NCBI GenBank assembly: GCA_020073015.1
Contig: JAIQFZ010000006.1
Location: 1-64,000 of the forward strand
Source of the DNA: Terriglobia bacterium
GTDB lineage: Bacteria; Acidobacteriota; Terriglobia; Terriglobales; Acidobacteriaceae
Direction: 5' to 3'
DNA length: 64,000 nucleotides
Both the position numbers and the translations under genes were made by a program. The first letter of the stretch is position 1, and each line of letters begins with the position of its first letter. The notes beneath the pieces are model-generated. The model was not told the DNA's origin, ran no database searches, and saw only the letters and a list, made by a program, of their open reading frames with translations. Below are positions 3,001 through 28,462 of the stretch, piece after piece.

Positions 3001-4482
3001 CTCGGTACGGGAACTACGAACCAGCAGAACGTAGTCGCCCTGTATACCGCGTTCACCACAACCCAAGCGCCGAGCCAGCCGCAAGCGGACGCCACCACCC
3101 CCAACGGCAACGGTGTGATCATCACCGGAGGTACCGGTGCCTGCACCAACCCCGCAAGCTATTGGGACATTGGCGTGCGCGGTGACACAGGACCCGGCAA
3201 TCACGCCTCAACCTTCACCCTGCACCCGACGTACTCGATCCTGACGGACGCCAGCGACTATCCGGGGGCAAACAATTTGTCGTCCAACCCGACCGTTATC
3301 AGCCAGTACTGCAACGGTTCTCGGGTGCCGCCGGAGTTGGGTTCGATGGGCTACCAGGTGCCACCGGGCATCTCGGACGCCACCGTGCCTAACCCAATCT
3401 TCAACCTGACGCCAGCCGCAACGGTGGACGAGGGCAACAACTGGATCAACATCAGCTGGGGCCCGCTGGCGGAGACGAACCCGGTCTCGGGAGCCGTGCT
3501 CGGCAACTACGCGCTGGCAGCTGGTTCACCAGCGATCAACGCCATCCCGACCTCGTCCGCGAACGGCACCGGAGTAGCGCCGACGACCGACTTCTTCGGC
3601 AATAACCGGCCCTTGGGCGGTGCATATGACATCGGCGCGGTAGAGTTCCGGGGCACTCCGCCAGCTCCGACTTCGATCACTCCGAACACGGGGGTGCGTG
3701 GAACCGTTGTTCCGGTGACCATTGCGGGCAGCGGCTTGACGGGAACTACGGCAGTAGCCGTGTCCGGCACCGGGGTTACCGTCAGCGCCATAACCGTGGT
3801 GAACGACAGTACCGTGACGGCAACCTTCACCATAACTACGACTGCGACGCTTAGCGCGAGGAACGTCAGCGTTACCACTTCGGGCGGAACCGCTACTCTG
3901 ACCGGGGCGTTCACGGTGACTGCTCCACCAGCGCCGACGCTGACCTCCGTCACTCCCAACTCGGGTGTGCGAGGAACCGCCGTTTCGGTAACCCTGACAG
4001 GCACTAACCTGACGGGAACCAGTGCCGTCCTGGTGTCCGGCACCGGAGTTACTGTCAGCAACATCGCGGTGGTGAACGACACTACGGTGACGGCGACCTT
4101 CACGATCACAACTGGCGCGACCCTTAGTGCGAGGACCGTCCGGGTCACTACGCCGGGCGGCACTAGCCCCACGGCCGGAGCCCCGACGTTCACCGTGCAG
4201 GGAGCGACGCTGACCTCCATCGCCCCCAACGCACACACGCGCGGCGGCGCCGCCTTCCAGGTGACCCTAACCGGTACCAACCTGACTGGCGCAACCTCAG
4301 TGAACGTGACACGGCCCGGCGGCGGCGCGGTCGGCATCACCGTTACCGGCGTTACCGTGGTGAACTCCACTACGGTCACGGCGAACTTCACGATCGCGGC
4401 GACTGCTAACCAATCGGCGAGGAACGTCACCGTCACCACGCCAATCGGGCCCACGAACGCCGTGACGTTCACGGTCCAGTAA
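1..4482 (+). CDS. Giant secreted beta-helix/IPT surface protein, 5'-truncated by the window edge
   Basis: The reading frame is open from base 1, and its first codons align with the interior of the 3089-aa protein at 17590-26859 (from about its residue 1558), so this is the C-terminal part of a paralogue that begins upstream. The visible 1493 residues contain a region with cysteines conserved between the two copies (about 1-390). A right-handed beta-helix/pectate-lyase-like region follows (about 395-1200), with many NN- and GGG-rich turns and an IQTAIDLAKPGDLIIV entry strand. Three tandem IPT/TIG immunoglobulin-like domains end the protein (about 1218-1493), each opening with a SITPNTGVRGT-like segment. 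Such architecture is typical of extracellular structural or adhesive proteins; no catalytic motif is evident. Unlike the full-length paralogue it has three rather than two IPT units and lacks the extra C-terminal domain. The family role is inferred, not shown. Confidence 0.85.
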   Translation: MGNIFILPDQATIDNPYNAQNQTQNLGRVENLPSHEGDTGSVESFWPCVGQARVVPDYISLFPLSQEVSPFAGATRNLCDRKEVTLDEQTSALAKFYIFTSTHAAAHFTGVITDDYTSEFDPFSPQFGEKFSPPDLPVSIRDFNGNEILRTYADHWGTYNGLNYSTWEVNPPNPTGYAPTMMVTCMNDPGTGPVPDPLFNPQYSDFCYELPFMPGQTQYMDTPVVPTSAFAGAGYNNPDCAYPAATPAIAEVDGDGVGPWVLQAGNTITIHALGDQSVPNNAYSGPSATTDPYNKKFVTRHYGFGATAGTVALLGRDGIARPLTGVSWSDTTITGTVPSMPSQGSTCPIVQQLQYGGTGNSQRCGELVITTSSGQQSIDTVTVTIAGKAPTHVAATDSIQTAIDLAKPGDLIIVDPTCTTTAGPAACAVTGQTHSQATHEELLLMWKPVRLQGVGAASSLINANTHPAGKLDAWRARVNCLFGLGLNGSPSTWDSSCGAGWFGFSNANGINPQVDRLATEATVGWDATLNGNLAELLQEPSLMGALEGAGITVLSKGVYFPSSPWVTIGATFPTGTLLLNNGTSTQNGCGPNNANAHNPYPSNFWCNPSSIDGLTITNSSQGGGGIFVHAWGHNLQIANNRIQNNAGTLSGGINVGQGEFPPAYLQGAANADPGSCNLSATQGSLSLPANAQQPYCHDLYVNVHHNSVTSNSSTGDELFSATPAGAGGVSFCTGSDYYKFNFNWVCGNLSTGDGGGFAHMGFIFNGDIEHNTFLFNQSTNPTIAANGGGVLIMGAPDVDPTCGTTTDADCVPAPSSVTPSDGVGPNLVINANLIMGNAAEAGSGGGLRFQQVNGGEVLAFPTTPANWYSPRVTNNIIANNVAGWDGAGISLQDALTINIINNTVMSNDTTASSGVLFNTLGSPLASSSGTNCMNGSTSSCPQPAGLVSIQNSSVLKANLALLPTAITCPTGHPNCQNFSSPVLANNVFWQNHAFYIGVGSLGTGTTNQQNVVALYTAFTTTQAPSQPQADATTPNGNGVIITGGTGACTNPASYWDIGVRGDTGPGNHASTFTLHPTYSILTDASDYPGANNLSSNPTVISQYCNGSRVPPELGSMGYQVPPGISDATVPNPIFNLTPAATVDEGNNWINISWGPLAETNPVSGAVLGNYALAAGSPAINAIPTSSANGTGVAPTTDFFGNNRPLGGAYDIGAVEFRGTPPAPTSITPNTGVRGTVVPVTIAGSGLTGTTAVAVSGTGVTVSAITVVNDSTVTATFTITTTATLSARNVSVTTSGGTATLTGAFTVTAPPAPTLTSVTPNSGVRGTAVSVTLTGTNLTGTSAVLVSGTGVTVSNIAVVNDTTVTATFTITTGATLSARTVRVTTPGGTSPTAGAPTFTVQGATLTSIAPNAHTRGGAAFQVTLTGTNLTGATSVNVTRPGGGAVGITVTGVTVVNSTTVTANFTIAATANQSARNVTVTTPIGPTNAVTFTVQ

Positions 4483-4536: not shown

Positions 4537-5061
4537 ATGAAAAACCTGATGATGCGATCAACCATCTTCGCCAATCTTCTGCTTTGCGGCGCTCTGTTTG
4601 GACAGAGCGCCGCACCAGCTTCAACCGAAAACAAAACCAATCCATCGGCAGCCCCAGCGGTGAAGCCTGTAAAAACTGCGGCTAAATCGCCCTATCACCC
4701 CAATCGCTTCGCCGGACGAGCAGGTTCGTATTACCGGCTGGTCTGGGGAGTCGACTCTCTCGCAGTAAAGTGGACGGAGTCGGGCGAGGTTATAAAATTC
4801 ACCTACCAGGTGTTAGACGCCGATAAGGCCAAGACACTCAATGACAAGAAGAACGAGCCTTCTTTAATCGACCCGCAGGCCGGGGTCAAACTGGTGGTCC
4901 CGTCGCTGGAGAAGGTTGGGCAATTGCGTCAGAGCGCCACTCCTGAGGACGGCAAGTCCTACTGGATGGCTTTCTCGAACAAAGGCCGGCGGGTGAAGCG
5001 CGGAGACCGCGTGAGCATAGTGATCGGACAATTTCGAGCCGACGGCCTCGTAGTGGATTAG
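4537..5061 (+). CDS. 174-aa secreted protein of unknown function, copy 1
   Basis: The protein starts with a hydrophobic signal segment ending near FGQSAAP, followed by a low-complexity Ala/Pro/Lys linker to about residue 55 and a compact C-terminal domain (about 60-174). That domain is nearly the same in the second copy at 27060-27584: both contain WGVDSLAVK, an LNDKKNEPSLIDP block, GVKLVVPSLEKVG, YWMAFSNKGR and a closing FRADGL. I do not recognise a named family. Its fixed place between a giant surface protein and a LolA-like protein in both loci suggests a dedicated periplasmic or surface partner of the giant protein. ATG at 4549 is an alternative start that still leaves a signal peptide. 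Confidence 0.85.
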   Translation: MKNLMMRSTIFANLLLCGALFGQSAAPASTENKTNPSAAPAVKPVKTAAKSPYHPNRFAGRAGSYYRLVWGVDSLAVKWTESGEVIKFTYQVLDADKAKTLNDKKNEPSLIDPQAGVKLVVPSLEKVGQLRQSATPEDGKSYWMAFSNKGRRVKRGDRVSIVIGQFRADGLVVD

Positions 5062-5191: not shown

Positions 5192-6061
5192 ATGCCGGGC
5201 AAGAAGTCCCTGCTTCTGAGTGTCCTATTCTGCCTGTGTTGTTCGCTGGCCTTGGTGGCGACGGATAGCAAGCCTGCGCCTGCCGACCTGACTGCCGCAC
5301 AGATCGTCGAAAAGAATATTGCGGCCCGCGGCGGTCTGCAAGCATGGCGCGGGGTCCAGACGATGTCGTGGACCGGCAAAATGGATGTCGGCGGCGGCTC
5401 GCTCGAGCGCAGCCGAAGAATGGCTGAACGTAAGCGCGGACGTCCCGGCAGGATGGAGATCACGGACCACAAGGATGCCGCGACCAAGGAAGAGGCCATC
5501 AAGCAAACCCAGCTGCCCTTCGTGTTCGATATGAAGCGCCCGGGCAAGTCAAGAGTCGAGATTGAATTTGCAGGCAAGAAAGCTGTGCAGGTTTACGACG
5601 GAACCAACGGGTGGAAGCTGCGTCCCTTCCTCAACCGGAACGATGTGGAGCCGTTCACGCCCGAGGAAGCGAAGTCCGAGGCGGGAAAGGATCTGGATGG
5701 CCCCCTGGTTGACTACGCGGCAAAGGGAACCAAAGTGGAAGTTGAGGGAGTGGAGAAGGTAGAAGACCGCGATGCCTACAAGCTCAAGCTCACCACTAAG
5801 ACCGGTAGTGTGCAACATGTCTGGATCGACAAACAGAGCTTTCTGGATGTAAAAGTCGAAGGATCACCGCGCCGCATGGATGGCAAGATGCATACGGTGT
5901 GGATTTACCAGAAAGACTTCCGATCCGTGCAAGGCGTAATGATTCCCTTCGTTCTGGTGACGGTAGTTGACGGATACCATGAAACGCACCAGATGGTAAT
6001 CGAGAAGGCAGAAGTAAATCCGAAGCTGGATGACGCTTTGTTCGCTAAGCCTAAGGTGTAA
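5192..6061 (+). CDS. LolA-like outer-membrane lipoprotein-sorting protein, copy 1
   Basis: This 289-aa exported protein has an N-terminal signal peptide ending near ALVATDSKP. Its body carries the hallmarks of the LolA/LppX-fold family annotated as outer membrane lipoprotein-sorting protein: a QIVEKNIAARGG helix, a VQVYDGTNGWKLRPF strand pair, a VDYAAKGTKVEVEGVEKV segment and a C-terminal LDDALFAKP. LolA-like proteins bind lipid or a lipoprotein acyl chain in the periplasm. Here a role in handling a surface component of the neighbouring giant protein/oxidase locus is inferred. The paralogue at 27635-28462 lacks an internal stretch of about 15 residues around the basic region near residues 70-95. 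The start is set by a GAGGAG ribosome binding site eight bases upstream. Confidence 0.85.
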   Translation: MPGKKSLLLSVLFCLCCSLALVATDSKPAPADLTAAQIVEKNIAARGGLQAWRGVQTMSWTGKMDVGGGSLERSRRMAERKRGRPGRMEITDHKDAATKEEAIKQTQLPFVFDMKRPGKSRVEIEFAGKKAVQVYDGTNGWKLRPFLNRNDVEPFTPEEAKSEAGKDLDGPLVDYAAKGTKVEVEGVEKVEDRDAYKLKLTTKTGSVQHVWIDKQSFLDVKVEGSPRRMDGKMHTVWIYQKDFRSVQGVMIPFVLVTVVDGYHETHQMVIEKAEVNPKLDDALFAKPKV

Positions 6062-6098: not shown

Positions 6099-6297
6099 GT
6101 CCTTTCGAAACTGGACGAGACCTCAGAGTTTTCTCCGTAAGGTGCTCACCCCCAGAGCACGCAAAGGATGAGCGAATGATCCCGCTCCCTACTTGCGAGA
6201 TGCGGTACCCGATACCAGCTCGCAAGAAAATCTTCCAAGAGGTAGTAGACTTTACCTCCGCGGAAGTCTTGCAGGCAGTATGTGTGGGGTGAAAACT

Positions 6298-14392: not shown

Positions 14393-15997
14393 ATGAGGAA
14401 GCTTTTCCCGTTCTGTGTGTCACTGATTGTGGTCGTGGTTGCGACTCTCGCCGCGAATGCGCAGTCTTTCCAAGTTCAATGTCCAACCAGCACCATCACG
14501 CACCCGGTAGCGCGCACTTCGGCTCAGGGTGAGCCCGCGTACAGCGGGGCGACGACGTTTTCGACTGGCTCGCAAGGATACCAAGTACCTACTGCCAACG
14601 TGAACGGCGCGATTAAGTGCCAGCAGATCTCCGGCGGCGATGGTTTCGCGACCATGGGAGACGGCACTCAGACCTATTTGTTTGCCTTCGGTCCTCTGTC
14701 CGGATTGGCGGATATGGCTGCCGGGAAGCCCGGAACCCAGTTCCCGGATGTTTTCAATAGCGTTTTCTCGGGTACGTTGAAGCCCGGTGATCCGGCTACT
14801 ACGAACGGCGCCGGCGACGATCCATACGCGATCGGTAACCTCAGCACCTTTTCGTTTAACGGCGCTGTTGGGCTGGCTCCCGATCTGGATGCCATCGCGA
14901 GCGGCGCTTGCACTGCCCCGTGTATCGACGGTCACGTCGATCCGCGCCCAATCATGGATGTTGGTGTCATGAACGGCAACATGCCCGCGCCGCTGATGGC
15001 GATCGATGAAGATGACGAATTCTTCCTCACGTTGACCAACGTCGGCCAAGTCATGCGTCCCGACCTGTTCGAACAGCATACCGTTCACTTCCACGGTTAT
15101 CCCAATGCCTCCGCGTTCTACGACGGCGTGCCTGATGCTTCGGTGGCCATCAACATTGGCGGCAGCTTCACCTATTACTATCTAGCGCCCGAGGCTGGCA
15201 CTTACTTCTGGCACTGCCACATCACTCCCCCAGAGCACTTGCAGATGGGCATGGTCGGTCAAATCTACGTGCGCCCACGGCAGAACCGCTGGTCGGGAAC
15301 CCTCTTTGCAGGTTTGCAGCAACAGCAGTTGGATCTGCGGACCAAGTGCGATTCCACGGACATTCTGTGCAGCAATCCCTTGCCAGCCGTGAATACTGGG
15401 GCTAGTAACGACAGCACCAAGAAGTATGCCTATAACGACGGCGATGGTTCTACCGCCTATAACGTTGAGTATCCCCTCCAGATCCACGGTTTCGATCCCA
15501 ACTTCCACTTCGTCGGCATGACCTTCAACCCGGAGAACTTCACGGGCATGAAGGATAAGTACTTTCTGTTGAATGGCCGCAGTTATCCCGACACTGTGAA
15601 CCCCGATCCTCTGGCGACCCAGACTACCGATGGAGTCATGCACTATTCGCAGCCGATGCCGTCGATCATCAACATTCCAGCGGGCGGCAAGGCTTTGCTG
15701 CGCATTGCCGACCTGGACGTCACGGAATATCAGACACTGGCCTCCCTGGGCATTCCGATGCAGGTCATCGCGCTCAATGCCAAACTGCTGCGCGATCAGG
15801 CGGGCAACAACCTCTACTACAACACCAACTCAATCACGTTGGCTGGTGGCGAGTCGCTCGACGTGATTCTGGATGCCAGCGACCAAGCCAAATATCCCTC
15901 GGGTAGCGTGTTCTACCTTTACACCCCCAACCTTGATCACCTGTCGAACGATGCCGAGAACTTCGGCGGGTTGATGACCGAAGTCCGGATTAACTAG
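14393..15997 (+). CDS. Multicopper-oxidase-fold protein A, carrying the N-terminal-type copper motifs
   Basis: This 534-aa exported protein (signal peptide ending near AANAQSF) has cupredoxin domains of the multicopper oxidase superfamily. It carries motif I as HFHG (residues 232-235), and motif II as H274-C275-H276 in a WHCHITPPEHLQMGM context. That C275, with H282 and M287, could form a type-1 copper site inside this domain. The C-terminal cupredoxin has the fold signature but not the ligands: where HPxHxHG is expected it reads SLGIPMQVIA, and where HCHxxxH is expected it reads NLDHLSNDAENFGGLM. The next gene carries the missing motifs, so A probably works with it. The ribosome binding site is AAGGAGG, and the downstream gene follows after 10 bases. 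Confidence 0.85.
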   Translation: MRKLFPFCVSLIVVVVATLAANAQSFQVQCPTSTITHPVARTSAQGEPAYSGATTFSTGSQGYQVPTANVNGAIKCQQISGGDGFATMGDGTQTYLFAFGPLSGLADMAAGKPGTQFPDVFNSVFSGTLKPGDPATTNGAGDDPYAIGNLSTFSFNGAVGLAPDLDAIASGACTAPCIDGHVDPRPIMDVGVMNGNMPAPLMAIDEDDEFFLTLTNVGQVMRPDLFEQHTVHFHGYPNASAFYDGVPDASVAINIGGSFTYYYLAPEAGTYFWHCHITPPEHLQMGMVGQIYVRPRQNRWSGTLFAGLQQQQLDLRTKCDSTDILCSNPLPAVNTGASNDSTKKYAYNDGDGSTAYNVEYPLQIHGFDPNFHFVGMTFNPENFTGMKDKYFLLNGRSYPDTVNPDPLATQTTDGVMHYSQPMPSIINIPAGGKALLRIADLDVTEYQTLASLGIPMQVIALNAKLLRDQAGNNLYYNTNSITLAGGESLDVILDASDQAKYPSGSVFYLYTPNLDHLSNDAENFGGLMTEVRIN

Positions 15998-16007
15998 GAG
16001 CGCAGCA

Positions 16008-17573
16008 ATGAGGGCGACGAATATGAAAAGAGCGATTTCCAAGACACAACTGCTTCTGGCGATGGTGGTCACGATGACACTGTTGCTTACGCCGACGGCT
16101 TTCGCGGCGGCTCCTGGAATCACGGGCCCAACCTTCAACCTGACGGCGCAGCCCTCCTTCATCAGCGAGCCCGACGGCTCCTTCGTTTATTCGTGGGGGT
16201 ATGGGTGCAATGGCGCGCCGCTCGGCTATGCCCCGGCGGCGATCTCCAGCAACTTCTGCAATACCATGCAGATACCCGGGCCGACGCTGATCGTTACGCA
16301 AGGACAGGCGGTCACGGTGACGCTCACGAACAATCTGCCCAACGCGGCCGGGAACACATCCATTCTTTTTCCCGGCTTCAACGTGGCAACCACGGGCGGC
16401 GTTGCGGGACTGCTGACGCAAGAGGCAGTGCCCGGCGGTTCGGTGACCTACACGTTCACTGCTTCGACGCCCGGCACGCGCTCCTATTACAGCGGAACAC
16501 AAGGCGACCTCCAGGTTGAGATGGGCCTGTACGGGGCGATCATCGTCCTGCCCTCCACGATCCCCGCAGCCTGCACATCCGGGATTCACGCCAGCAACCA
16601 GACGGCACAAGGCAACTGGGGTGAATCCGATTTCCGGCTGGCAGCGGCGGCATACAACCACCCGGGCGCCTGCTATGACAGGGAATACTTGTTCCAGTTC
16701 TCCGAGATGGATGACAGGATTCACCGAGAAGCCGAAGCACAGTCCACCCGGGCTTGCACGGGTTGCATGAGCGTCGCCACCGAGCCTTATGTTCCGGCCT
16801 ACTTCATGATCAACGGCCGCTCGATGCCGGACCTTATGGATCCCAACTATGCTCCGGAATATCCACACCAGCCTTACAACGGCAATCCGCACATGCATCC
16901 TGGCGAATTGACATTGTTGCGCGTCATCGGCCAGGGACGCTGGCAACACCCGTTCCACGAGCACGGCAACCACGTGCGCGTGCTGGCCCGCGATGGAAAT
17001 TTGATTCTCAGCGCGACCGATCCTAACAGTCTTGCCGGACCGTTACTCTTCACGACAACCACAACCCCGGGCCAGGCGATGGATGGAATCTACTACTGGA
17101 CGGGCAAGGGGCTGAACTGGGATCCGTATGGCCATAACCCCACCTCGAGTGACCCACAGGCCAAGCTGACGTGTACGCCGGATGGCAACGGCTACAACAC
17201 GAGCGCGCCAGCCGCAATCAATTATTTCGAGTGGTGCCAGGATCACAACAAGCCACTGCAAGCTACGCCAGCTGGCGATGTCGCTGGTGGCGGTCCGGCA
17301 ACTCTGCCCGATCCCAACATCTTCGCTAACGGTGCTTGGTTCGGTGGCAGCCCCTATCTGGGACCAAACGCGACGGTACGCGCGGTTGGCACGACCGGGA
17401 CCACACCACCCTCCGGGACGGTAGCGAACGCGCCCGATTCCGAAGCCGGCTTTGCCTTCATGTGGCACTCGCACAACGAGCGCGAAATCACCACGAACAA
17501 TATTTTTCCGGGCGGCATGCTCATGATGATGCTGGTTGATTCCCGGGAATTCGTCATCGACGAGTCCAACTAA
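16008..17573 (+). CDS. Multicopper-oxidase-fold protein B, carrying the C-terminal-type copper motifs
   Basis: This 521-aa protein has an N-terminal hydrophobic export segment and multicopper oxidase domains complementary to protein A. The first cupredoxin keeps the framework (IPGPTLIVTQGQAVTVTLTN, GLYGAIIV), but the HxHG position reads LFPG and the HxH position reads YYSGTQGD. The last cupredoxin carries motif III as H314-P-F-H317-E-H319-G. Motif IV appears as H487-S-H489-NERE493, so the type-1 cysteine and following histidine are replaced by Ser and Glu. Alone it would lack half of the trinuclear cluster; paired with A all four motifs would be present, with the type-1 site in A. The ribosome binding site is AGGAG; the next gene starts 16 bases after the stop. 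Confidence 0.85.
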   Translation: MRATNMKRAISKTQLLLAMVVTMTLLLTPTAFAAAPGITGPTFNLTAQPSFISEPDGSFVYSWGYGCNGAPLGYAPAAISSNFCNTMQIPGPTLIVTQGQAVTVTLTNNLPNAAGNTSILFPGFNVATTGGVAGLLTQEAVPGGSVTYTFTASTPGTRSYYSGTQGDLQVEMGLYGAIIVLPSTIPAACTSGIHASNQTAQGNWGESDFRLAAAAYNHPGACYDREYLFQFSEMDDRIHREAEAQSTRACTGCMSVATEPYVPAYFMINGRSMPDLMDPNYAPEYPHQPYNGNPHMHPGELTLLRVIGQGRWQHPFHEHGNHVRVLARDGNLILSATDPNSLAGPLLFTTTTTPGQAMDGIYYWTGKGLNWDPYGHNPTSSDPQAKLTCTPDGNGYNTSAPAAINYFEWCQDHNKPLQATPAGDVAGGGPATLPDPNIFANGAWFGGSPYLGPNATVRAVGTTGTTPPSGTVANAPDSEAGFAFMWHSHNEREITTNNIFPGGMLMMMLVDSREFVIDESN

Positions 17574-17589
17574 TTACGAGGAGACAGCA

Positions 17590-20500
17590 ATGCGATTCAA
17601 CAATCTCAAGGCGACTTTGAAAACAGCGGTACTAGTAACAACTGTTCTCCTCCTCGGAGCGGGTCTCGCAGTCGGTCAGGTGACAGTCAACCTGACCGCA
17701 GGGCCGAGCACGGCGACGCTACCCGACGGCTCAGCGGTGCCCATGTGGGGTTACAGCTGCGACGGCGGTGCGAGCGCGAACTGCCGCGCGTTGAATGGCT
17801 CGACGTCGGTCGGCGCCTGGTCCCCCGTTGTGATTACTGTTCCTACGGGGCAAAACCTGACGATCAGCCTGACCAACAGTCTGTCCTTTACGGCTGGAGC
17901 GGGCACGAATGGCATACCCACTTCGCTGACCATCGTCGGCCAGTTGGGCGGCGGTCTGGGAAGCACGGCGCAGAGGAGCACCACGCCGAGTCCGGACCAT
18001 CCCACGCAGACACTCACGTGGCCGGCCGCCAGCAGTGACCCGGGTGACGGCGCGAACAATCCGCCGCCGCAGGGACCGCGCGTGCAGTCGTTTGCTACGG
18101 AAGTTGCCGCAGGAGCCACGACCAGCCTGACCTGGACAGCTCCCCGGCCCGGAACCTATTTGCTGGAGTCGGGCACTCACCCATCGATTCAAGGGCCGAT
18201 GGGACTGTTCGGCATCGTGGTGGTGACGAGTGCGCCCGTGGGAACCACGGCGGGCACCGCCTATTCGGCAGGGGCGAATCCTGCTGTGACCTACAACGCG
18301 GACATTCCGCTGCTGTTTAGTGAAATCGATCCGGTCCAGAACAAATCGGTCGACACGGCGGTCCGTACGGCTGGCTTCACCGAGACCAAGGTGTGGTCTG
18401 GACAGCCAGATCATTGCGGCAATGCGGCTTCCGCGGACTACAACACCTGCTATCCGCCGGCCGTGAACTACTCTCCGCGCTATTACCTCATCAACGGACT
18501 TGCGTTCGACAAGACCCACGCTTCGCTCTCGTTGTTCCCAGTTGCGCCCGCCTCGGGAGTCACCGGAACCGTCCTGGTGCGCATGGTCAATGCTGGCCTG
18601 CGCATGCACATCCCGTCGATTGTTGGCGCCCAAACCGGGTCTGCAGCATCGGGCTTCGGACTGATTGCGGAAGACGGCAATCCGCTTCCTGGCGTAACCC
18701 GCGTGCAAAGCGAAGTGTTCATGGCCCCGGGCAAAACGTACGACGTGATGATCAATGTGCCTGCGGCGGGCGGCACGGCTCTCCCGATCTTCGACCGCCA
18801 GGGGAGCTTGTCGGGCAACGCGACCACACGTGACGCCGGCATGTTGGCGTACCTCAGCGTCAATGGCGCGGCGCTGCCAAATGTGGCGGCATTCTCGGCC
18901 TCTGCGACAGCGAATGGCGATACCTATCATGTGATCGCGGACCATACGCTCACGGTCGCGGATCCGTCCAAGGGCGTGATCGGTAATGACGCCAATGTTT
19001 ACAACGTCAAGGTTTCCACACCGCCGACGCAGGGCACGCTCACTCTGAACACCGACGGAACTTTCACCTATGTTCCTAACGCTGGGTGGACCGCTCCTGA
19101 CAGCTTCGTGTACCAGGCCAACGGCAGCGGCCCGACCGCGACCGTGACCCTGGATGCGTGCACGAATGGCAACGGCTGCCTTGAAGCGGCCGTCGGCATC
19201 AGCCTTACAGACGATGCCTACACATCTGCGATCGGCCCACGCGCCGCTAAGCCTGCAAGTTTCAGCATCAAGCCTCCCGGCGTCCTCTTCAACGATAAAG
19301 ACGGCGCCGGCTTCCCGCTCAAGGTTGCGCTGTCCGGTAGCGATGCTCCCGTGGCGTCCGCCGGCCTCACCCTTTCGGTGGATCCGGACGGCGGATTCAA
19401 TGCATCCGTGAGCGCAGCGGGCACCTATACCTTCACTTACAAGGCGGTTAACTCCCAGGGAACGGTCAGCGCCTCCGCTGCGACCGTGACCCTGAGCTTC
19501 CCAACGCCGAACGGTCCTGCGGTCACGCTGGTGGACGGCGCAACCAAGGCTGCCCTGAGTACTCAGGACTACCGCTGGATCATTGAGGAAGACCGCACCT
19601 TCTATGTAAACCCCAATTGCCAAACGAACCCTGTGCCCGCAGGTTGCCCGGTTGCCACTCCTCAAGGGGCTCCCGCGATCTTTGGGACGAACTTCCACAC
19701 CAGCTACATGCCCGTCGTAGCGCAGGGCTGCGTCGGGACGATTTCCTGCGAAGATGGGCAGTTCGTCCTCGACAGTAGCGGTGCCCACGTACCCGCAGTG
19801 TGCGACATCGGCAATGGAGCCTGCAGACCCGGCACCACCAAGACGGAGGTCGATCCCAGCCAAGTTGTTCTGGATCCGACCAAGCACTACTACATCTCGG
19901 TCCTGCCTGGCGATGCCATGGATCCGGGACACGGCATGGGCGGCGCTCAGATTGCCCCTGGACAGACGTCAGTGTCGGTCACGGTTGAGCCCGAGCTAGC
20001 GCAAGCGGCTAAAGTCTCAGTGTTCGTGTTCGAAGATGACCATCCGCTCAACGGCGAGCACGATGCCAGTGGCGGTATCGACACATTGTCGCCGAACGAG
20101 GCCGGCTTGGGTGGGTTTAACATCACCATCCTCGACCTGGTAGGCATGTCGGGCGACCCTGCCGGTCAGATGACCTACGACGAGTTCGGCCAACCTCTGT
20201 CGAACGCCTTGGCGGGAACCATCGATCCGGTCACGAAGAAGGATGCGTGCCCGGTCACCGCAAATCCGACGAAAGGATTTGACGGAACCGACAGTCCTGT
20301 GGGCATCACCGGCGTGATCCCTGTCTGCCCGAGGTACGAGTCGGACGGCACAACGCTGTCCCCACTAGCCGGTCAGGCGATCGTCGTGAACATGCCTCCC
20401 GGAAGGTACGGCATCGTAGCCACGCCCGCTGCGGACCGGATTGCACGTGGTGAAGAGTGGCTGCAAACCAACACTCTGGACGGCGGAAAGGACCACGAGG

Positions 20501-23500
20501 CTTTCATCCGTAACAACGAACCCAGCTACTTCCAGGAATTCGGTCCGGGTTCATTCCACGTGTCCATTGGCTTTGCCAATCCGAAGTTCATCCATGACAT
20601 TGGACATGCGCTTTGTACCGGTACTGGCGCCCCAGCGTGCAACCAGACGGTGCAGGGAATCGTCACCGGCGCGCATATGAGCCGACCCTCGGATGAGAGA
20701 CTGTACGGCAGTGGCACGAACGATACGTTTGGTTACACCCAGTGCTACGTGAGCCTGGGGAGCCCGGACGGCGCCGACTTCGCGTTCACTAAGTGCAATA
20801 GCGATGGAACGTTCAGCCTGGCCGGCATTCCCGAAGGTGATTGGAAGATCACGGTCTTCGACCAGTGGAACGACATCATCGTCGACGGGATTTCGACCCC
20901 CGTGCGCGTGGGCAGCGATAACGCCACCTTGTGTCATGGATCGAATTCTTCTGGCTCGGTCTGCGATATGGGAGAAATCGCGGTGAACGCGTGGAAGGAT
21001 AACCTCAACACCCGCACGTTCTTCGACGTGAACGGAAACGGTATCTCGGACGACGGTGAGCAAGGGCTCACATTCGTGCCCACCAACATCCGGTACCGCG
21101 ACGGCAGTATCTCCAACCTGAACAGCACCGACCTGGAAGGTTTCGCCGGCTTCAACGAGGTCTTCCCGATCTTCAACTGGTATGTGATGGAAACGGATTC
21201 GAACCGCTATAAAACCACCGGGATACACGTCATCAACGACGCAGGTGGCCCGGTCGACGGTTCCACCGGCCCCTACGCCTGCGGCCAAGGCAACTTCCCG
21301 GCTTGCGGAGATTCCTCCCTCCTGCAGAACCTTGCCAGGACTAACGAGGATTTCCCTCTGCCCGTGGGGGATGCCACTCATCCAAACTTGCGGATTCCCG
21401 GCGCGGTCTATTGCGATCATGCTGACTGCGCTGGCTTCTCGATCGCAAATGGGCCGATCGCCGGTGGTTCGAGCGGCCCGGGCGGCTCCACTGGCCGAAT
21501 CGATCCGCCTTGGGTCACCAGCTACGGTTGGCAGAATTTCATGGGGCAGAACCAGCTCCTGGAATTCGGCAAGAAGCCATTCGCAGCGGGCGAGAACGGC
21601 GGCATCCGCGGCCACGTCGTATATACCTCGACCCGTCCGTTTGATGACCCGGCACTGCTGCTCCAGCTTACTTGGGAACCGCAGGTTCCGAACGTCACGA
21701 TGAACCTCTACCAGGAGGGCTTTGCGGCAGACGGAGTAACCCCGACCCTGACCCTGGTGGACACGACCAAGACCAGCAGCTGGGACGAGTGGGCGCAGGG
21801 CTTCCGCTCCGACGGCGTGCCGAACATGAACTGCCCGGGCCAGTCAACCGGCGATCTGTTCTTCTACACCATCAATAATCAGCCGAACCTCCTGGATTTC
21901 TACAACTCCCAGCACGGAGGACCGGCGGTGACTCCGCTGCCGTACAACTCCCAGTACAAGTGCTATGACGGAATGCACAACTGGAACCAGCTGCAACCGG
22001 CTCCGTACGACGGCATGTATTCATTCCCCAGCGTCACGGGCTTGAATCCGACCACCGGGAAGCCAGCCGGGACCAATTGCACGATTTGTGTGTCGAATCC
22101 GGACAACACGGATCCCTACCGGTTCGGTACGGCCATGCTGCCCGCAGGCAAGTACGTAGTCGAAATGATTGTTCCTCCGGGCTACGAACTGGTGAAAGAA
22201 GAAGACAAGAACATCCTGCTTGGCGACACGTACGAAGCTCCGGTAACCACGCAGTTCGCCGGCTTCGGCAACATTTTCATTATGCCGGACCAGGCTTCGG
22301 TCGCGTCTGCTTACAACCCGAACAATCCGCTGAATTCGACGACCGATCTGGGCGCAACGCCACGCCATGAAGGTGACACCGGAAGCGTTGAAACCTTCTG
22401 GCCTTGTGTCGGTACCGCCCGCGTTGTTCCCGACTACATGAGCCTCTTCCCGCAGTCGGGGCAGAACTCTCCGTTTGCCGGAGCCACGCGCAATCTTTGC
22501 GATCGCAAAGAGGTTACGCTCGAGGATCAGATGTCGGTGCTGGCGAAGTTCTACGTCTTCAGCTCAACCCACGTTGCTGCCCACTTCACGGGCATCATCT
22601 CGGACGATTTCACCTCGGAATTCGATCCGTTCTCGCCGGCGTTCGGCGAGAAGTTCTCGCCTCCCAATCTGCCGGTGGGCGTCCGGGATTTCAACGGAAA
22701 CGAAATCGCTCGCGTCTGGTCCGACCAACATGGAATCTATAACGGGCTGACGTACTCGACGTTCTCCGTGAACCCGCCGGATCCCAGCGGCTACATCCCG
22801 CAGATGATGGTCATGTGCATGAACGACCGTGGTTCTGGCGTGGCGCCCGATCCTTTCTATCAGGCCGCCTACAGCCAGTTCTGCTATGAGTGGTCCTTCA
22901 TGCCGGGCCAAACTTCCTACATGGATACGCCGGTGATCCCCACCTCCGCGTTTGCGGCGGAATACAACCATCCCGATTGTGCTTATCCGAACGCCACTCC
23001 GGCGATCAAGAGCGTCATCGGCAACGATGCAACTGGCTCCACGGCTGCCAGCGGTAAAGGACCGTGGGTGAGTGGGTCCGGTGCCGGTCACACTCTCACG
23101 ATCACCGCGCTGGGCGACGTTGACGTGAACGACTACGCGTACTCCGGGCCTTCTGCGACGGTGGCGCCGTTTAACAACAAGACGATCACCCGCCACTACG
23201 GCTTCGGGACCACGGCAGGTACGGTCGCTCTGCTCGGCAGCGATGGCAATACTTATCCGCTGACGGGCGTGAGTTGGAGTGACCTGACGATCACGGGCAC
23301 GGTTCCCAATGGGGTGCCGGCGTGCGCGATCCAGCAGCAGCGGCAATACGGAGGCCCGAACAACGGCAATGCCGAGCGCTGCGGTGAATTGGTGATCACG
23401 GCCGCCAATGGCAAAAAATCCATTGACACCGTGACCGTTACCATCGGCAGCATCGGAACCAATGGAAGCAAGATTCCGACGGTGCTCGCAGCTGGACAGA

Positions 23501-26500
23501 CGATTCAGTCCGCCATCGACGCTGCCGCACCGGGCGATCTGATCATCGTTCCTCCCGGTAGCTACCATGAATTGTTGCTGATGTGGAAGCCGGTCCGGCT
23601 GCAAGGAGTCGGAGCTGCGTCCAGCATCATCGACGCAAACACGCATCCTTCAGGCACTCTCCTCAATGACTGGCGCCTGCGGGTGGTCTGTCTGTTCGGG
23701 CTAGCCCCCAATGGCGTGCCTGACGGGTATGACTCGGCTTGCGGAAACGGCTGGAACTTCTTCAGTCCGACGACGTCGAACCCACAAGTCGATCGCTTGC
23801 CGTTGGAGGCCACAGTCGGCTGGGACGCCACGCTGAACGGCAACCTGGCAGAGCAGCTGCAGGAACCAAGCCTGATGGGAGCGTATGAAGGAGCGGGAAT
23901 TACCGTGCTCTCGAAGGGCGTGCGTTTCCCCAACGGATCGAACCCGTGGACCGACGGCGCTGAGCCGGGCGGGTTCCCGGTCGGCACCACGCTTCTTGAC
24001 AACGGCACCCAGGCTCTCAGCGCTGACCCCAACGGTTGCGGGCCAAACACCACAGGTGCTCACAATCCGTTCCCAAGCAGCTTCCAATGCAACCCGTCGC
24101 GTATTGACGGCTTGTCGGTTACCAACAGTTCCCAAGGCGGCGGCGGCATCTTCGTGCACGGCTGGGGACACAATCTGGAAATCGCCAACAATCGCGTCTA
24201 CAACAACCAGGGCACGCTGTCGGGCGGGATCACGGTTGGCCAAGGGGAACATCCTGGCGCCTACGTCCAGGGAGCTGCCAATGCAGATCCGGGTTCCTGC
24301 GTTAACGGGGGCACGGGCGTTTTCACGAATACTCAGCTGCCGTACTGCTTTGACCGGTTTGTAAACGTACACCACAACGCGGTCACGGCGAACTCCTCCG
24401 AAGGCGATGAATTGTTCTCGGCCACTCCCTCAGGGGCGGGCGGCGTTTCCTTCTGTTCGGGTGCCGACAACTACCAGTTCAACTTCAACTGGGTGTGCGG
24501 CAACATGAGCACGGGTGACGGCGCTGGAGTTGCCCAGATGGGGTTCGTGTGGGATGCGAGCATCCAGCACAACACGATCCTGTTCAACCAGGCCACTAAC
24601 CCAACCACGCCCAGCAACGGCGGCGGTCTGCTCATCATGAGCGCTCCGGATACGGATCCGACCTGTCCTGGAGAGCCCGACGCGGATTGCAGCCATGCCT
24701 TCGGCACGGTGGGCGACGGCATCGGTCGCAACCTGGTGATCAACGCCAACCTCATCATGGGTAACGCTGCGGAAGCTGGTGCCGGCGGCGGTATCCGCTT
24801 CCAGGGTGTCAACGGCGTGGAAGTGTCCACGTTCCCCAACAATCCGGAGCGCTGGTACTCGGTCAGCGTTACGAACAACATCATCGCTAACAACGTTGCC
24901 GGTTGGGACGGTGGCGGCCTGTCGTTGCAGGACTCCATCGGAGTGAACCTGATCAACAACACGATCGTCTCCAACGACTCCACCGCATCGTCGGGAACGC
25001 TCTTTGGCGCCTTCTTTGCGACCCAAGCCAGCTCCCCGACACCTTGCCCACGGGACGCCCAGGGGGCAAACATCCCCTGCGTGCCGCTATCGGATCCGCA
25101 GCCAGCCGGCCTCTCGAGTGCCGGACACACGGCTGAGTTCCTCGCGTCGCTCCCGGCGAGCATCACCTGTCCTCCGGGCCATCCGATCGCCGCAAACCCC
25201 GCCAATGGCGTGGTGAATGGCGCTTGCCGGACGGTCTCGTACCCGAGTCTGTACAACGATGTGTTCTGGCAGAACCGCGCCTTCAACATCGTGGTGACGC
25301 AGCCGGCTGCGGGAGCCACGCAGGCAACGGTAACCCTGGTTCCAACGCTGAGTCAGACCAACACCGGCGATTGCATCGCTCCGCCGGCTGGGACGACCTA
25401 TTGGGATATCGGTCTGCGCGGCGACCACGGACCGACCGACCATAGCTCAGGGGTAACGTTCACACCGGAAGCGTCGGTGCTGACCGATATCACTGGCTAT
25501 GCTGGTGGAGGTTCAGGCTTCCGCGCCAACACGGCTTCCTTTAGCCCAGGCGTTGTCCGGCAGTACTGCAACGGCTCGAAGATTCCGCCGGAGGCGGGTG
25601 CTTCGACTTGGTACCAGGTGCCCCCGGGTACCTTTGAAGGCAACGTGCCCGTGCCCGTCTTCAGTCTGACGGCAGGGGCGACTGTGGACGAGGGCAACAA
25701 CTGGATCAATATCAGCTGGGGCCCCTTGTCACTGATCAAGCCGACTACGGAGACCAACCCGGCCACCGAGGATGTGCTTGCTGACTACTCGTTGTTGGCG
25801 GGCTCTCCGGCCATCAACTACATCACGCCAGTCAACTCCAGCAGGACTTACGCAGCGGCGCCGAACAATGATTTCTTCGGTAACCTGCGCAAGACCAACA
25901 ATGCGGTTGACGCGGGTGCGGTCGAGTTCGCGGGCCCGGCTGCTGCCCAGCCGACGCTGACCTCGATCGCTCCCAGCTCCGGACGGCGGAATAGCGCCGT
26001 AAACGTGACTCTCACCGGCACGAACCTGACCGGTGCCACAGGGGTGGCCGTGTCCGGAACTGGTGTGAACGCTATTTCCGTTAGCAACCTCGTGGTGGTG
26101 AACGACACTACCGTCACGGCGACCTTCACCATCGGAGCGAACGCTGCAGTTACCGGCGCAAACGCTTCCCACAACGTCACCGTCTCTACTCCTGGCGGAA
26201 CCAGCAACGCCGTGATCTTCACGGTGGTAGCGCCGTCGCTGGCTTCAGTCACTCCCAACACGGGCGTACGTAGCAGCACGGTTAACGTGAGCCTTGTGGG
26301 CACCGGCTTCACGGGAGCGACGGCTGTCAACGTCGTGGGACCGGGGGCAGTCAATGCCACCAGCTTCACGGTGGTGGATGACTCGCATATCAACGCGACC
26401 ATCCAAATCGGTGGTCTCTCGAATGCGCAACTCGGGAATCAGACTGTCAGCGTTACCACTCCGGGCGGAACCACCAACACCGTGCCGTTCACGGTCTTGG

Positions 26501-26859
26501 GGGGGACGGTCGCCTTCACCGGACCTGTCCCGGTGTTGACTTCGACCCCGGCCAACACCAACCAGAAGAACGGCGTGATCACGGTTACCAATAGCGCCAC
26601 CGGGGCGTTTGCTGGTCCGATTACGCTGACCGCGAATCCGACGATCGTTCCAGTGACGGGTGGCGCCAATGGAACGTTCTCGATCCAACCCGGCGGAACG
26701 TGCGTGTCGGGTTTCCAAATCACCTCAGGCGGCGGTACTTGCACGATCAATGTGCGGTACCAGCCAAACAATTCGTCAAATGCGACGGCCCATGTCACTC
26801 TCAACGATACCGGGGCCACCACCGCAACGCAGAGCAGCGCCAACTTCACTGCGAACTAA
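17590..26859 (+). CDS. 3089-aa surface protein: degenerate oxidase domains, Ig-like, SdrD-B-like, beta-helix, IPT
   Basis: The ATG at 17590 follows GAGGAGACAGCA and begins a signal peptide (ending near LAVGQ). Residues 30-430 resemble multicopper oxidase domains 1 and 2 (LVRMVNAGLRMHIP, GLIAEDGNPLPG, MAPGKTYDVMI) but lack the four copper motifs. Two Ig/cadherin-like domains follow (about 450-535 and 540-640), then Cna-B/SdrD-B-like modules (about 810-1340, including FFDVNGNGISDDGEQGL at 1142). A region shared with the truncated paralogue starts near 1558. A right-handed beta-helix (about 1963-2700), two IPT/TIG domains (about 2785-2970) and a terminal domain resembling ASPM/SPD-2/Hydin repeats complete it. 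It is the third gene of the oxidase operon, which suggests a scaffold or surface display platform for the A/B oxidase. Confidence 0.9.
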   Translation: MRFNNLKATLKTAVLVTTVLLLGAGLAVGQVTVNLTAGPSTATLPDGSAVPMWGYSCDGGASANCRALNGSTSVGAWSPVVITVPTGQNLTISLTNSLSFTAGAGTNGIPTSLTIVGQLGGGLGSTAQRSTTPSPDHPTQTLTWPAASSDPGDGANNPPPQGPRVQSFATEVAAGATTSLTWTAPRPGTYLLESGTHPSIQGPMGLFGIVVVTSAPVGTTAGTAYSAGANPAVTYNADIPLLFSEIDPVQNKSVDTAVRTAGFTETKVWSGQPDHCGNAASADYNTCYPPAVNYSPRYYLINGLAFDKTHASLSLFPVAPASGVTGTVLVRMVNAGLRMHIPSIVGAQTGSAASGFGLIAEDGNPLPGVTRVQSEVFMAPGKTYDVMINVPAAGGTALPIFDRQGSLSGNATTRDAGMLAYLSVNGAALPNVAAFSASATANGDTYHVIADHTLTVADPSKGVIGNDANVYNVKVSTPPTQGTLTLNTDGTFTYVPNAGWTAPDSFVYQANGSGPTATVTLDACTNGNGCLEAAVGISLTDDAYTSAIGPRAAKPASFSIKPPGVLFNDKDGAGFPLKVALSGSDAPVASAGLTLSVDPDGGFNASVSAAGTYTFTYKAVNSQGTVSASAATVTLSFPTPNGPAVTLVDGATKAALSTQDYRWIIEEDRTFYVNPNCQTNPVPAGCPVATPQGAPAIFGTNFHTSYMPVVAQGCVGTISCEDGQFVLDSSGAHVPAVCDIGNGACRPGTTKTEVDPSQVVLDPTKHYYISVLPGDAMDPGHGMGGAQIAPGQTSVSVTVEPELAQAAKVSVFVFEDDHPLNGEHDASGGIDTLSPNEAGLGGFNITILDLVGMSGDPAGQMTYDEFGQPLSNALAGTIDPVTKKDACPVTANPTKGFDGTDSPVGITGVIPVCPRYESDGTTLSPLAGQAIVVNMPPGRYGIVATPAADRIARGEEWLQTNTLDGGKDHEAFIRNNEPSYFQEFGPGSFHVSIGFANPKFIHDIGHALCTGTGAPACNQTVQGIVTGAHMSRPSDERLYGSGTNDTFGYTQCYVSLGSPDGADFAFTKCNSDGTFSLAGIPEGDWKITVFDQWNDIIVDGISTPVRVGSDNATLCHGSNSSGSVCDMGEIAVNAWKDNLNTRTFFDVNGNGISDDGEQGLTFVPTNIRYRDGSISNLNSTDLEGFAGFNEVFPIFNWYVMETDSNRYKTTGIHVINDAGGPVDGSTGPYACGQGNFPACGDSSLLQNLARTNEDFPLPVGDATHPNLRIPGAVYCDHADCAGFSIANGPIAGGSSGPGGSTGRIDPPWVTSYGWQNFMGQNQLLEFGKKPFAAGENGGIRGHVVYTSTRPFDDPALLLQLTWEPQVPNVTMNLYQEGFAADGVTPTLTLVDTTKTSSWDEWAQGFRSDGVPNMNCPGQSTGDLFFYTINNQPNLLDFYNSQHGGPAVTPLPYNSQYKCYDGMHNWNQLQPAPYDGMYSFPSVTGLNPTTGKPAGTNCTICVSNPDNTDPYRFGTAMLPAGKYVVEMIVPPGYELVKEEDKNILLGDTYEAPVTTQFAGFGNIFIMPDQASVASAYNPNNPLNSTTDLGATPRHEGDTGSVETFWPCVGTARVVPDYMSLFPQSGQNSPFAGATRNLCDRKEVTLEDQMSVLAKFYVFSSTHVAAHFTGIISDDFTSEFDPFSPAFGEKFSPPNLPVGVRDFNGNEIARVWSDQHGIYNGLTYSTFSVNPPDPSGYIPQMMVMCMNDRGSGVAPDPFYQAAYSQFCYEWSFMPGQTSYMDTPVIPTSAFAAEYNHPDCAYPNATPAIKSVIGNDATGSTAASGKGPWVSGSGAGHTLTITALGDVDVNDYAYSGPSATVAPFNNKTITRHYGFGTTAGTVALLGSDGNTYPLTGVSWSDLTITGTVPNGVPACAIQQQRQYGGPNNGNAERCGELVITAANGKKSIDTVTVTIGSIGTNGSKIPTVLAAGQTIQSAIDAAAPGDLIIVPPGSYHELLLMWKPVRLQGVGAASSIIDANTHPSGTLLNDWRLRVVCLFGLAPNGVPDGYDSACGNGWNFFSPTTSNPQVDRLPLEATVGWDATLNGNLAEQLQEPSLMGAYEGAGITVLSKGVRFPNGSNPWTDGAEPGGFPVGTTLLDNGTQALSADPNGCGPNTTGAHNPFPSSFQCNPSRIDGLSVTNSSQGGGGIFVHGWGHNLEIANNRVYNNQGTLSGGITVGQGEHPGAYVQGAANADPGSCVNGGTGVFTNTQLPYCFDRFVNVHHNAVTANSSEGDELFSATPSGAGGVSFCSGADNYQFNFNWVCGNMSTGDGAGVAQMGFVWDASIQHNTILFNQATNPTTPSNGGGLLIMSAPDTDPTCPGEPDADCSHAFGTVGDGIGRNLVINANLIMGNAAEAGAGGGIRFQGVNGVEVSTFPNNPERWYSVSVTNNIIANNVAGWDGGGLSLQDSIGVNLINNTIVSNDSTASSGTLFGAFFATQASSPTPCPRDAQGANIPCVPLSDPQPAGLSSAGHTAEFLASLPASITCPPGHPIAANPANGVVNGACRTVSYPSLYNDVFWQNRAFNIVVTQPAAGATQATVTLVPTLSQTNTGDCIAPPAGTTYWDIGLRGDHGPTDHSSGVTFTPEASVLTDITGYAGGGSGFRANTASFSPGVVRQYCNGSKIPPEAGASTWYQVPPGTFEGNVPVPVFSLTAGATVDEGNNWINISWGPLSLIKPTTETNPATEDVLADYSLLAGSPAINYITPVNSSRTYAAAPNNDFFGNLRKTNNAVDAGAVEFAGPAAAQPTLTSIAPSSGRRNSAVNVTLTGTNLTGATGVAVSGTGVNAISVSNLVVVNDTTVTATFTIGANAAVTGANASHNVTVSTPGGTSNAVIFTVVAPSLASVTPNTGVRSSTVNVSLVGTGFTGATAVNVVGPGAVNATSFTVVDDSHINATIQIGGLSNAQLGNQTVSVTTPGGTTNTVPFTVLGGTVAFTGPVPVLTSTPANTNQKNGVITVTNSATGAFAGPITLTANPTIVPVTGGANGTFSIQPGGTCVSGFQITSGGGTCTINVRYQPNNSSNATAHVTLNDTGATTATQSSANFTAN

Positions 26860-27021: not shown

Positions 27022-27059
27022 CGACCCAATAGCAGAAGGGGTGGCAAAGTCCAAGGGTG

Positions 27060-27584
27060 ATGTCCAGTAAGTTAGTAGTAAACACAAAGCTGCTGCTGAC
27101 AGCCGTTCTCGCCAGTGTGATCGCGTTTCCCCCCGCACAAGCGCAATCGGTTCAGGCCAATAAGAGTTCTGCGGTCCCGGCTGGGAAGGCTCGGGCGCCG
27201 GTGGTTCCACAACGCTATCGGCAAAATCGTATGCCGCCGAAAGCGCGTCAGTACTACGCAGTGATGTGGGGCGTTGATTCTCTCGCTGTGAAGTCAGTGG
27301 AGTCCGGCGAGATTATCCGGTTTACCTACCGCGTGCTCGACGCGGCGAAGGCAAAGGTTCTCAATGACAAGAAGAACGAACCGTCGTTGATCGACCCCGG
27401 AGCCGGTGTCAAACTGGTGGTCCCGTCTCTGGAGAAGGTTGGTAAGTTACGTCAGAGCAGTACGCCCGAGGCGGGCAAGGTGTATTGGATGGCCTTCTCG
27501 AATAAGGGCAGGTACGTGAAACCGGGGCACCGAGTCAGCGTCGAAATCGGACCGTTTCGGGCCGACGGCCTTATCGTCCAGTAG
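27060..27584 (+). CDS. 174-aa secreted protein of unknown function, copy 2
   Basis: This is the paralogue of 4537-5061, with the same length, the same gene neighbours and the same domain order: signal peptide (ending near PPAQAQS), short linker, then a conserved domain of about 115 residues. Within that domain MWGVDSLAVK, LNDKKNEPSLIDP, GVKLVVPSLEKVG, YWMAFSNKGR and FRADGL are kept, while the N-terminal linker has diverged completely. The pattern indicates purifying selection on the folded domain. The ATG at 27060 is chosen; a GTG immediately before it is an alternative. No family was recognised. Confidence 0.85.
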   Translation: MSSKLVVNTKLLLTAVLASVIAFPPAQAQSVQANKSSAVPAGKARAPVVPQRYRQNRMPPKARQYYAVMWGVDSLAVKSVESGEIIRFTYRVLDAAKAKVLNDKKNEPSLIDPGAGVKLVVPSLEKVGKLRQSSTPEAGKVYWMAFSNKGRYVKPGHRVSVEIGPFRADGLIVQ

Positions 27585-27634: not shown

Positions 27635-28462
27635 ATGTCTCGAAAAACGGTGTTAGTCAGCGGCTTCCTGGCCTTGGCTGTTTCCCTCGCCCTGGGTGCG
27701 GATGCGCCGTCCTCAGTGGCCAAACTGACGGCGGAGCAGGTCATAGAGAAGAACGTTGCGGCGCGGGGTGGGTTGCAGGCGTGGCGGGCGGTGCAGACTC
27801 TCTCCATGAGCGGCAAGATGGATGCCGGTGGGAACGAGAGCCCGACCCGTCCGGTGCAAGGAGTGAAGACCGGAGGTGTGCAGCTGCCCAGGCGTCCGGC
27901 GGAGCAGGCGCAGTTGCCCTTTCGGCTGGAACTGAAGCGCACGCGCAAGTCACGCATGGAACTCGATTTTCGTGGACAGACTGCGGTCCAGGTCTACGAT
28001 GGCACCAACGGCTGGAAGCTGCGTCCGTTCCTGAATCGCCACGAAGTAGAGCCGTTTACGAAGGATGAGATGAAAGCAGTCGCGACGCAATCCGATCTGG
28101 ACGGTCCGCTTGTGGACTACGCCACCAAAGGGACCAAGGTCGAACTGGAAGGCACCGAAAAGGTCGAGGGCAACGATACGTATCGACTGAAGCTGACTTT
28201 CAAGAACGGGCAATCCCAGCGCGTATGGGTGAATGCGAAAACCTTCCTGGAGGCCAAGATCGATGGCACGCCCCGCCGCCTGGATGGCAAGTACCACGCG
28301 GTCGAAGTATATTATCGTGACTACCGAGCAGTGAATGGCTTGATGATGCCCTACGTCATGGAGACGAAAGTGGAGGGAGTCAAGCAGACAGAGAAGATCG
28401 AGGTCGAAAAGATTGCCGTCAACCCGCGAGTGGAGGATTCTCGCTTTGCCAAACTGCAATGA
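27635..28462 (+). CDS. LolA-like outer-membrane lipoprotein-sorting protein, copy 2
   Basis: This 275-aa protein is the paralogue of 5192-6061. It has a signal peptide (ending near LALGADAPS), the VIEKNVAARGGLQAWRAVQT helix, VQVYDGTNGWKLRPFLNRHEVEPF, and a C-terminal VNPRVEDSRFAKLQ. The fold family binds lipids or acylated proteins in the periplasm; the actual cargo is unknown. It has a clear AGGAG ribosome binding site. Unlike copy 1, which is followed by a terminator and pump genes, this copy runs almost directly into an LTxxQ-type gene. Confidence 0.85.
   Translation: MSRKTVLVSGFLALAVSLALGADAPSSVAKLTAEQVIEKNVAARGGLQAWRAVQTLSMSGKMDAGGNESPTRPVQGVKTGGVQLPRRPAEQAQLPFRLELKRTRKSRMELDFRGQTAVQVYDGTNGWKLRPFLNRHEVEPFTKDEMKAVATQSDLDGPLVDYATKGTKVELEGTEKVEGNDTYRLKLTFKNGQSQRVWVNAKTFLEAKIDGTPRRLDGKYHAVEVYYRDYRAVNGLMMPYVMETKVEGVKQTEKIEVEKIAVNPRVEDSRFAKLQ

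Follow-up and report, generated by a model that had tools for sequence, protein, structure and literature searches.

Proteins A and B, encoded by two adjacent genes in the window (the whole 64,000-nucleotide stretch analysed here, from an Acidobacteriota-like genome of 5.5 Mb whose closest named relatives are Acidobacteriota MAGs), are probably subunits of one secreted multicopper oxidase, with a trinuclear copper cluster at the A-B interface and a third protein, C, completing an A-B-C heterotrimer. Enzyme activity very probably requires the mixed complex, i.e. an obligate hetero-oligomer, because each gene encodes half of the cluster, and because the pair travels with C and with a giant protein part, here called D, across groups of bacteria. 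Table 1 lists the features on which the analysis rests.

Table 1. Features of the A-B-C operon, of the preceding second operon and of their surroundings (positions in the window).
Feature	Position	Strand	Description
Second C protein, 3' part	1..4482	+	58% identity to C 1559-2979; end of a tandem A-B-C operon
p162 family protein, second operon	4537..5061	+	Recurs downstream of C, as in the first operon
LolA-like protein, second operon	5192..6061	+	Counterpart of the first-operon LolA-like protein
CusB- and CusA/CzcA-type metal efflux pump genes	6193-11143		Between the two operon copies
Protein A	14393..15997	+	Secreted two-domain cupredoxin subunit, 534 aa; from ORF, Pfam Cu-oxidase_3, fold and conservation
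A motif I, H229-TV-H232-F-H234	15077..15094	+	In register with HTIHWHG of 3g5w; 99-100% kept in 117 sequences
A motif II, H274-C275-H276, with H282 and M285/M287	15212..15253	+	100% kept in 117 sequences
Protein B	16008..17573	+	Secreted two-domain cupredoxin subunit, 521 aa; from ORF, Pfam and fold
B motif III, H314-PF-H317-E-H319	16947..16964	+	In register with domain 2 of 3g5w and 2zwn; 100% kept
B motif IV, H487-S488-H489	17466..17474	+	In register with WHSH/FHDH of 2zwn; Ser in 103/103
Protein C	17590..26859	+	3089 aa; residues about 30-434 a two-domain cupredoxin, the rest the D part
p162 family small protein	27057..27584	+	Apparent signal peptide; follows C in Acidobacteriota, Burkholderiales and sister clusters
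LolA-like protein, after the operon	27635..28462	+	Pfam PF17131, E about 1e-6, just under the curated cut-off; conserved downstream

Complementary copper motifs in two co-inherited genes

The genes of A and B lie 10 nt apart on the plus strand, in different reading frames. Signal peptides are apparent at the start of both products, and both match Pfam multicopper oxidase domains above the cut-off, with cupredoxin domains of the Cu-oxidase type that are also recovered at the level of the fold (Z 25-30). In protein A, domain 1 holds motifs I and II together with a candidate type-1 site. The ligands are spaced as H229-TV-H232-F-H234-G and, after H274-C275-H276, as five residues, H282, two residues and M285-G-M287. 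Profile alignments place these motifs against domain 1 of 3g5w and 2zwn, which are solved type C two-domain oxidases. H229, C275, H282 and M285/M287 are the candidate type-1 ligands, and H232 and H234 of motif I and H274 and H276 of motif II are the cluster histidines. Domain 2 of A is ligand-free: VTEYQTLASLGIPM and YLYTPNLDHLSN stand at the places of motifs III and IV, the second of which reads YLYTPNLDHL.

Protein B shows the opposite arrangement. In its first domain, which is free of ligands, LFPG and YYSGTQGD stand where motifs I and II belong, and its second carries motif III, which continues into a glycine (H314-PF-H317-E-H319-G), and motif IV. The former aligns with domain 2 of both 3g5w and 2zwn, and the latter with domain 2 of 2zwn. 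The cluster histidines of B are H317, H319, H487 and H489; the position of the type-1 cysteine is occupied by Ser488 and is serine in every sequence covered (103/103). The first-pass annotation had described this division, with motifs III and IV lacking in the last cupredoxin of A, motifs I and II replaced in the first of B and the type-1 cysteine of B exchanged for serine, and it was correct on both proteins. It had also proposed C275, H282 and M287 as the type-1 site of A; these stand as candidates, but it had overlooked the candidate ligand H229. Taken together, A and B contain all four motifs, the eight cluster histidines and a type-1 site, while neither contains them alone.

The conservation of these residues was evaluated over 114-117 homologous sequences, including distant sister clusters, with A down to about 35% identity. 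All nine ligands of A (H229, C275, H282, M285/M287 and the four cluster histidines) are essentially invariant, with H234 present in 99% of 117 sequences, and all four cluster histidines of B are kept at 100%. Every ligand was already kept in 17 close A and B sequences; over about 106 loci the cluster histidines and type-1 ligands are invariant except for one serine at H234, and gaps; and the pattern was unchanged when sister clusters, whose A is about 35-57% identical to that of the window, were added. The joint set of four motifs is complete in every homologous pair covering both regions, with the one exception at H234, and the 99-100% conservation also covers sister clusters in which A is no more than 35-49% identical. 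The loss of complementary motifs has thus become fixed, and strong purifying selection acts on the halves that remain. From the histidines alone, 7 of the 12 alignable ones in A are conserved at 98% or above, six of them at ligand positions, and six in B are conserved at 100%, five of them at positions of motifs III and IV; this enrichment is far beyond chance. The two remaining invariant histidines, H372 of A and H413 of B, lie outside the copper motifs and are possible substrate or structural metal ligands.

The homologous loci are distributed over the Acidobacteriota and several proteobacterial groups. The first-pass annotation had suggested a search for co-occurring A/B pairs, and had named as evidence against its reading homologous loci in which A or B regularly occurs alone. 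We therefore looked for A and B independently in the same genomes of three independent samples. In the first, where A was counted at E < 1e-100 as weaker matches are other oxidases, A was found in 9 of 151 genomes and B in the same 9. In the Burkholderiales-type order both were found in the same 6 of 250 genomes, and in the class of genome G370 A was found in 10 of 369, with B in the same 10 and, as a weak match, once more elsewhere. In all 96 fetched loci (96/96, a few of them mutual duplicates) A directly precedes B on the same strand, C follows in every contig that extends far enough, and a fusion of A with B occurred in none of the loci seen. Divergence is matched as well: the distance matrices of A and B over 109 loci correlate with r = 0.96, the best of 999 permutations reaching 0.29, and where a genome holds paralogous copies, their A and B have diverged to nearly the same extent. 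The condition named as evidence against the first reading, A or B regularly alone, was thus not observed in these samples; the pairs are adjacent, ordered, complementary in their ligands and matched in divergence. In two loci (L065 and L083), both on metagenome contigs, copies of B or C look broken, perhaps through assembly errors. In some genomes of Acidobacteriota the A-B-C operon is present in four or more paralogous copies, for example in G155 (L066, L069, L076, L150 and others) and G081 (L037-L040).

Protein C, the giant part D and the proposed heterotrimer

At residues about 30-434, C has a two-domain cupredoxin that is a homologue of B, with about 26% identity, and that keeps none of the copper ligand set. 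The remainder, the D part, gives Big_9, SdrD_B, NosD-like and choice-of-anchor Q matches. A sister lineage (L145-L147, L160, L162, L163 and L166-L169) encodes the C cupredoxin independently, in a gene of about 390-1100 aa; the D gene there stands apart as well and, on contigs long enough to include it, sits right before A. In another locus (L159, 8515-15558, minus strand), D and A form one ORF of 2347 aa, followed by B and C. D is therefore fused to C in the window-type loci versus A in L159, and such a change of fusion partner between lineages is a classic sign of components, here four, with a joint function. The unit of two genes proposed at first was thus right about the A-B pair but incomplete, as the ligand-free C and the giant D also belong to it. 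The six cupredoxin domains are encoded by separate genes, and not in one chain, in all loci seen.

By homology to the two-domain oxidases, the only pairing among the domains of A, B and C that would bring together the full set of eight histidines is that of A domain 1 with B domain 2. With this pairing, an A-B-C ring would comprise six cupredoxin domains and one cluster, and such a heterotrimer is probably comparable to a homotrimeric two-domain oxidase or a six-domain ceruloplasmin with a single trinuclear cluster. Each protein is a subunit of the two-domain type that makes homotrimers in ordinary two-domain oxidases and in copper nitrite reductase; here such a trimer would have become a heterotrimer with one copy of each protein. 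A would supply domain 1, with the type-1 copper (H229, C275, H282 and M287 or M285) and H232, H234, H274 and H276; B would supply domain 2, with H317, H319, H487 and H489; and the contribution of C would be a third domain pair, without ligands and attached to a giant protein that serves as surface protein or scaffold. The type-1 copper of A would be the entry point for electrons, which would pass over the His-Cys-His bridge to the single A-B cluster, where O2 would be reduced. A metal in its reduced form, for instance Fe(II) or Mn(II), may be the substrate, or else some other reductant outside the cell.

The strongest alternative, which we nevertheless consider unlikely, keeps the shared cluster in an A-B hetero-oligomer and places C outside the ring, for example as A3B3 with three equivalent sites and with C as a surface anchor only. 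It would account for the absence of copper ligands in C, and it agrees with the pTM of 0.76 that the linked A-B chain reached without C in one of the two AlphaFold2 models. However, the N-terminus of C is itself a two-domain cupredoxin of the B type that adjoins A-B in every lineage, and in the sister clusters it is an independent gene; the homology, the constant neighbourhood and the separate gene together fit a third member of the ring. In a six-membered A-B ring, moreover, half of the interfaces would be empty. The A-B-C heterotrimer is accordingly the arrangement that we prefer.

Predicted folds and comparison with known oxidases

AlphaFold2 models were obtained from natural genomic stretches with A and B in one frame, the intervening stop being read as a residue, in two loci (L067 and L163), each as a single chain without copper and without C. 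Both models predict a complete two-domain subunit for A as well as for B. The B part of the L163 model matches 2zwn with Z 30.4 (rmsd 2.6 A over 273 residues) and 3g5w with Z 30.3 (rmsd 2.4 A), and its A part matches the nitrite reductase (NirK) chain 3wia with Z 27.9 (rmsd 2.2 A over 257 residues); the subunit folds of the L067 model agree. The relative placement of the halves is a different matter. The L067 chain, with the higher pTM, gave one match to a three-domain oxidase (6vow) across A and B, over 351 residues with an rmsd of 6.3 A, and its stretch of B motif IV is below pLDDT 50. For the shorter L163 chain (pTM 0.61), no oxidase-like placement of A and B was found; A, B and C are all in frame in this locus (1187 aa), and in the three-protein alignment the B and C rows slid onto A. 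As the placement is not reproducible between the two models, we draw no claim on it, and it neither supports nor refutes the interface. The interpretation of the first-pass annotation is hence supported by the complementary ligands, the co-occurrence and the likeness to type C enzymes, but not by the predicted complex, since AlphaFold2 gave no reproducible oxidase-like arrangement.

The closest known systems are the type C two-domain oxidases, represented by the metagenome laccase 2zwn and the Nitrosomonas blue copper oxidase 3g5w. These have two cupredoxin domains per subunit, a type-1 site in domain 1, and cluster histidines in motifs I and II of domain 1 and motifs III and IV of domain 2. 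They provide the best structural matches of B and the best sequence matches of A, and A has the same build, a two-domain subunit with its candidate type-1 site in the N-terminal domain, so that the comparison with type C enzymes made at first sight holds. Two protomers contribute the residues that coordinate the cluster of two-domain oxidases (PMC13151041, PMC3192119). The type C enzymes, however, hold the four motifs in one polypeptide and form a homotrimer with three sites, whereas A-B takes two genes and has at most one site per pair. A-B would work like a type C enzyme, yet no single polypeptide carries the four motifs: A has only I and II, and B only III and IV.

If the A-B-C ring is right, the likeness extends to the six-domain oxidases (ceruloplasmin and the bacterial MnxG-like proteins), which have six cupredoxin domains and a single trinuclear cluster and which Foldseek ranked first by E-value. 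They are one polypeptide, whereas A, B and C are separate proteins whose site would be formed by domain 1 of A and domain 2 of B. Bacterial MnxG-like proteins have their cluster between domains 2 and 3 and the mononuclear site in domain 2 (PMC3600357). The manganese oxidase MnxEFG is also a multi-subunit multicopper oxidase complex, but MnxG is its sole multicopper oxidase subunit and MnxE and MnxF are small accessory proteins, in which it differs from A-B (PMC5622069).

The subunit fold of A also resembles NirK (Z about 27), and with its type-1 site and the domain 1 histidine in place, A alone could be a homotrimeric NirK-like or type-1 electron-transfer protein, with B as a separate structural or copper-binding protein and the half sites never meeting; the missing A-B interface in the AlphaFold2 result would agree with this. 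We regard this reading as improbable and rejected it on the ligand conservation and the missing ligands of the second domain. NirK has no trinuclear cluster, whereas A has a His-Cys-His motif. Domain 2 of A has no histidine at the positions of motifs III and IV, and therefore lacks the neighbour-domain ligand that the type-2 site of NirK needs; the match of A to the NCBIfam model Cu_nitrite_red is far below the cut-off. Also, the four cluster-type histidines of A, including the second one of His-Cys-His, are kept at 99-100%, as are the matching four of B, and no sampled genome has A without B. Far less credible still is the reading that an ordinary two-domain oxidase was duplicated and is now decaying, with complementary losses by drift: each protein is indeed short of two motifs when compared with type C oxidases, but this reading is already contradicted, and was rejected, by retained ligands that are 99-100% conserved over about 115 loci of Acidobacteriota and several proteobacterial groups, in every one of which the identical complementary loss is fixed.

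A search of the literature on heteromeric, split and heterodimeric oxidases, with subscription papers and preprints outside its scope, gave no precedent for a cluster shared by two gene products. Only heterodimeric laccases turned up, mostly in fungal papers. In POXA3 of Pleurotus, the whole copper site lies in the large subunit.

Genomic setting and significance

The start of the window lies within the C gene of another A-B-C operon, and the first 139 nt of the window are exactly the end of another contig (C232, locus L036), on which the A and B genes of that operon lie directly upstream of the window. From this overlap, two tandem operons flank a CusBA-type pump. The pump was considered as a part of the system and rejected; related proteins of pump size, putatively of this family, cluster near only about 10 loci. 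The upstream neighbours of the A-B-C loci are not conserved. On the downstream side, the recurring genes encode the small protein with its apparent signal peptide, LolA-like proteins, a cytochrome c protein and SCO1/SenC. We count the presence of SCO1/SenC, a family known for copper delivery, and of cytochrome c genes within the cluster in several lineages in favour of the oxidase reading.

In one group of loci (L130, L131, L132, L149/L153 and L158), a single protein downstream of C combines a cytochrome c domain with a periplasmic-binding-like part, and SCO1/SenC is next where the contig reaches; the two may be an electron partner and a copper chaperone. Downstream of the operon in the window, a histidine kinase and an OmpR-type response regulator (29925-32644) could be a metal sensor.

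A cluster of similar content has been described in Sideroxydans lithotrophicus ES-1. According to the available part of that report, Slit_1812-1818 includes three adjacent cupredoxin proteins, the third much larger and with adhesin- and lyase-like domains, as well as small proteins, SCO1/SenC and a cytochrome (PMC12016527). The same part states that the cluster is expressed more highly on magnetite than on Fe(II)-citrate, that similar clusters occur in Paraburkholderia and Ralstonia, and that two of the proteins have canonical oxidase motifs; it makes no mention of complementary half sites or a split site (PMC12016527). By gene content and layout, as far as they are given there, this cluster (with Slit_1816-1818) very probably belongs to the A-B-C family.

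All multicopper oxidases compared here build the cluster from the four motifs of a single gene product, as one chain or as a homo-oligomer. A natural and widely inherited split would mean that a division of work between subunits was one more way in which the symmetry of the ancestral trimer was lost, and it would be the intermediate expected between the homotrimeric two-domain enzymes and the six-domain ceruloplasmins. Annotation pipelines that score single proteins miss such an enzyme; for example, in the one annotated relative examined, all three genes are labelled 'hypothetical protein'. We see about an even chance that the family is a new architectural class, in which an obligate A-B-C heterotrimer with a single trinuclear cluster from two genes, a catalytically empty third subunit and a giant surface scaffold oxidises metals, solid or soluble, outside the cells of soil Acidobacteriota and Proteobacteria. 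If the Sideroxydans cluster is of the same family, the complex would be a testable candidate for extracellular metal oxidation.
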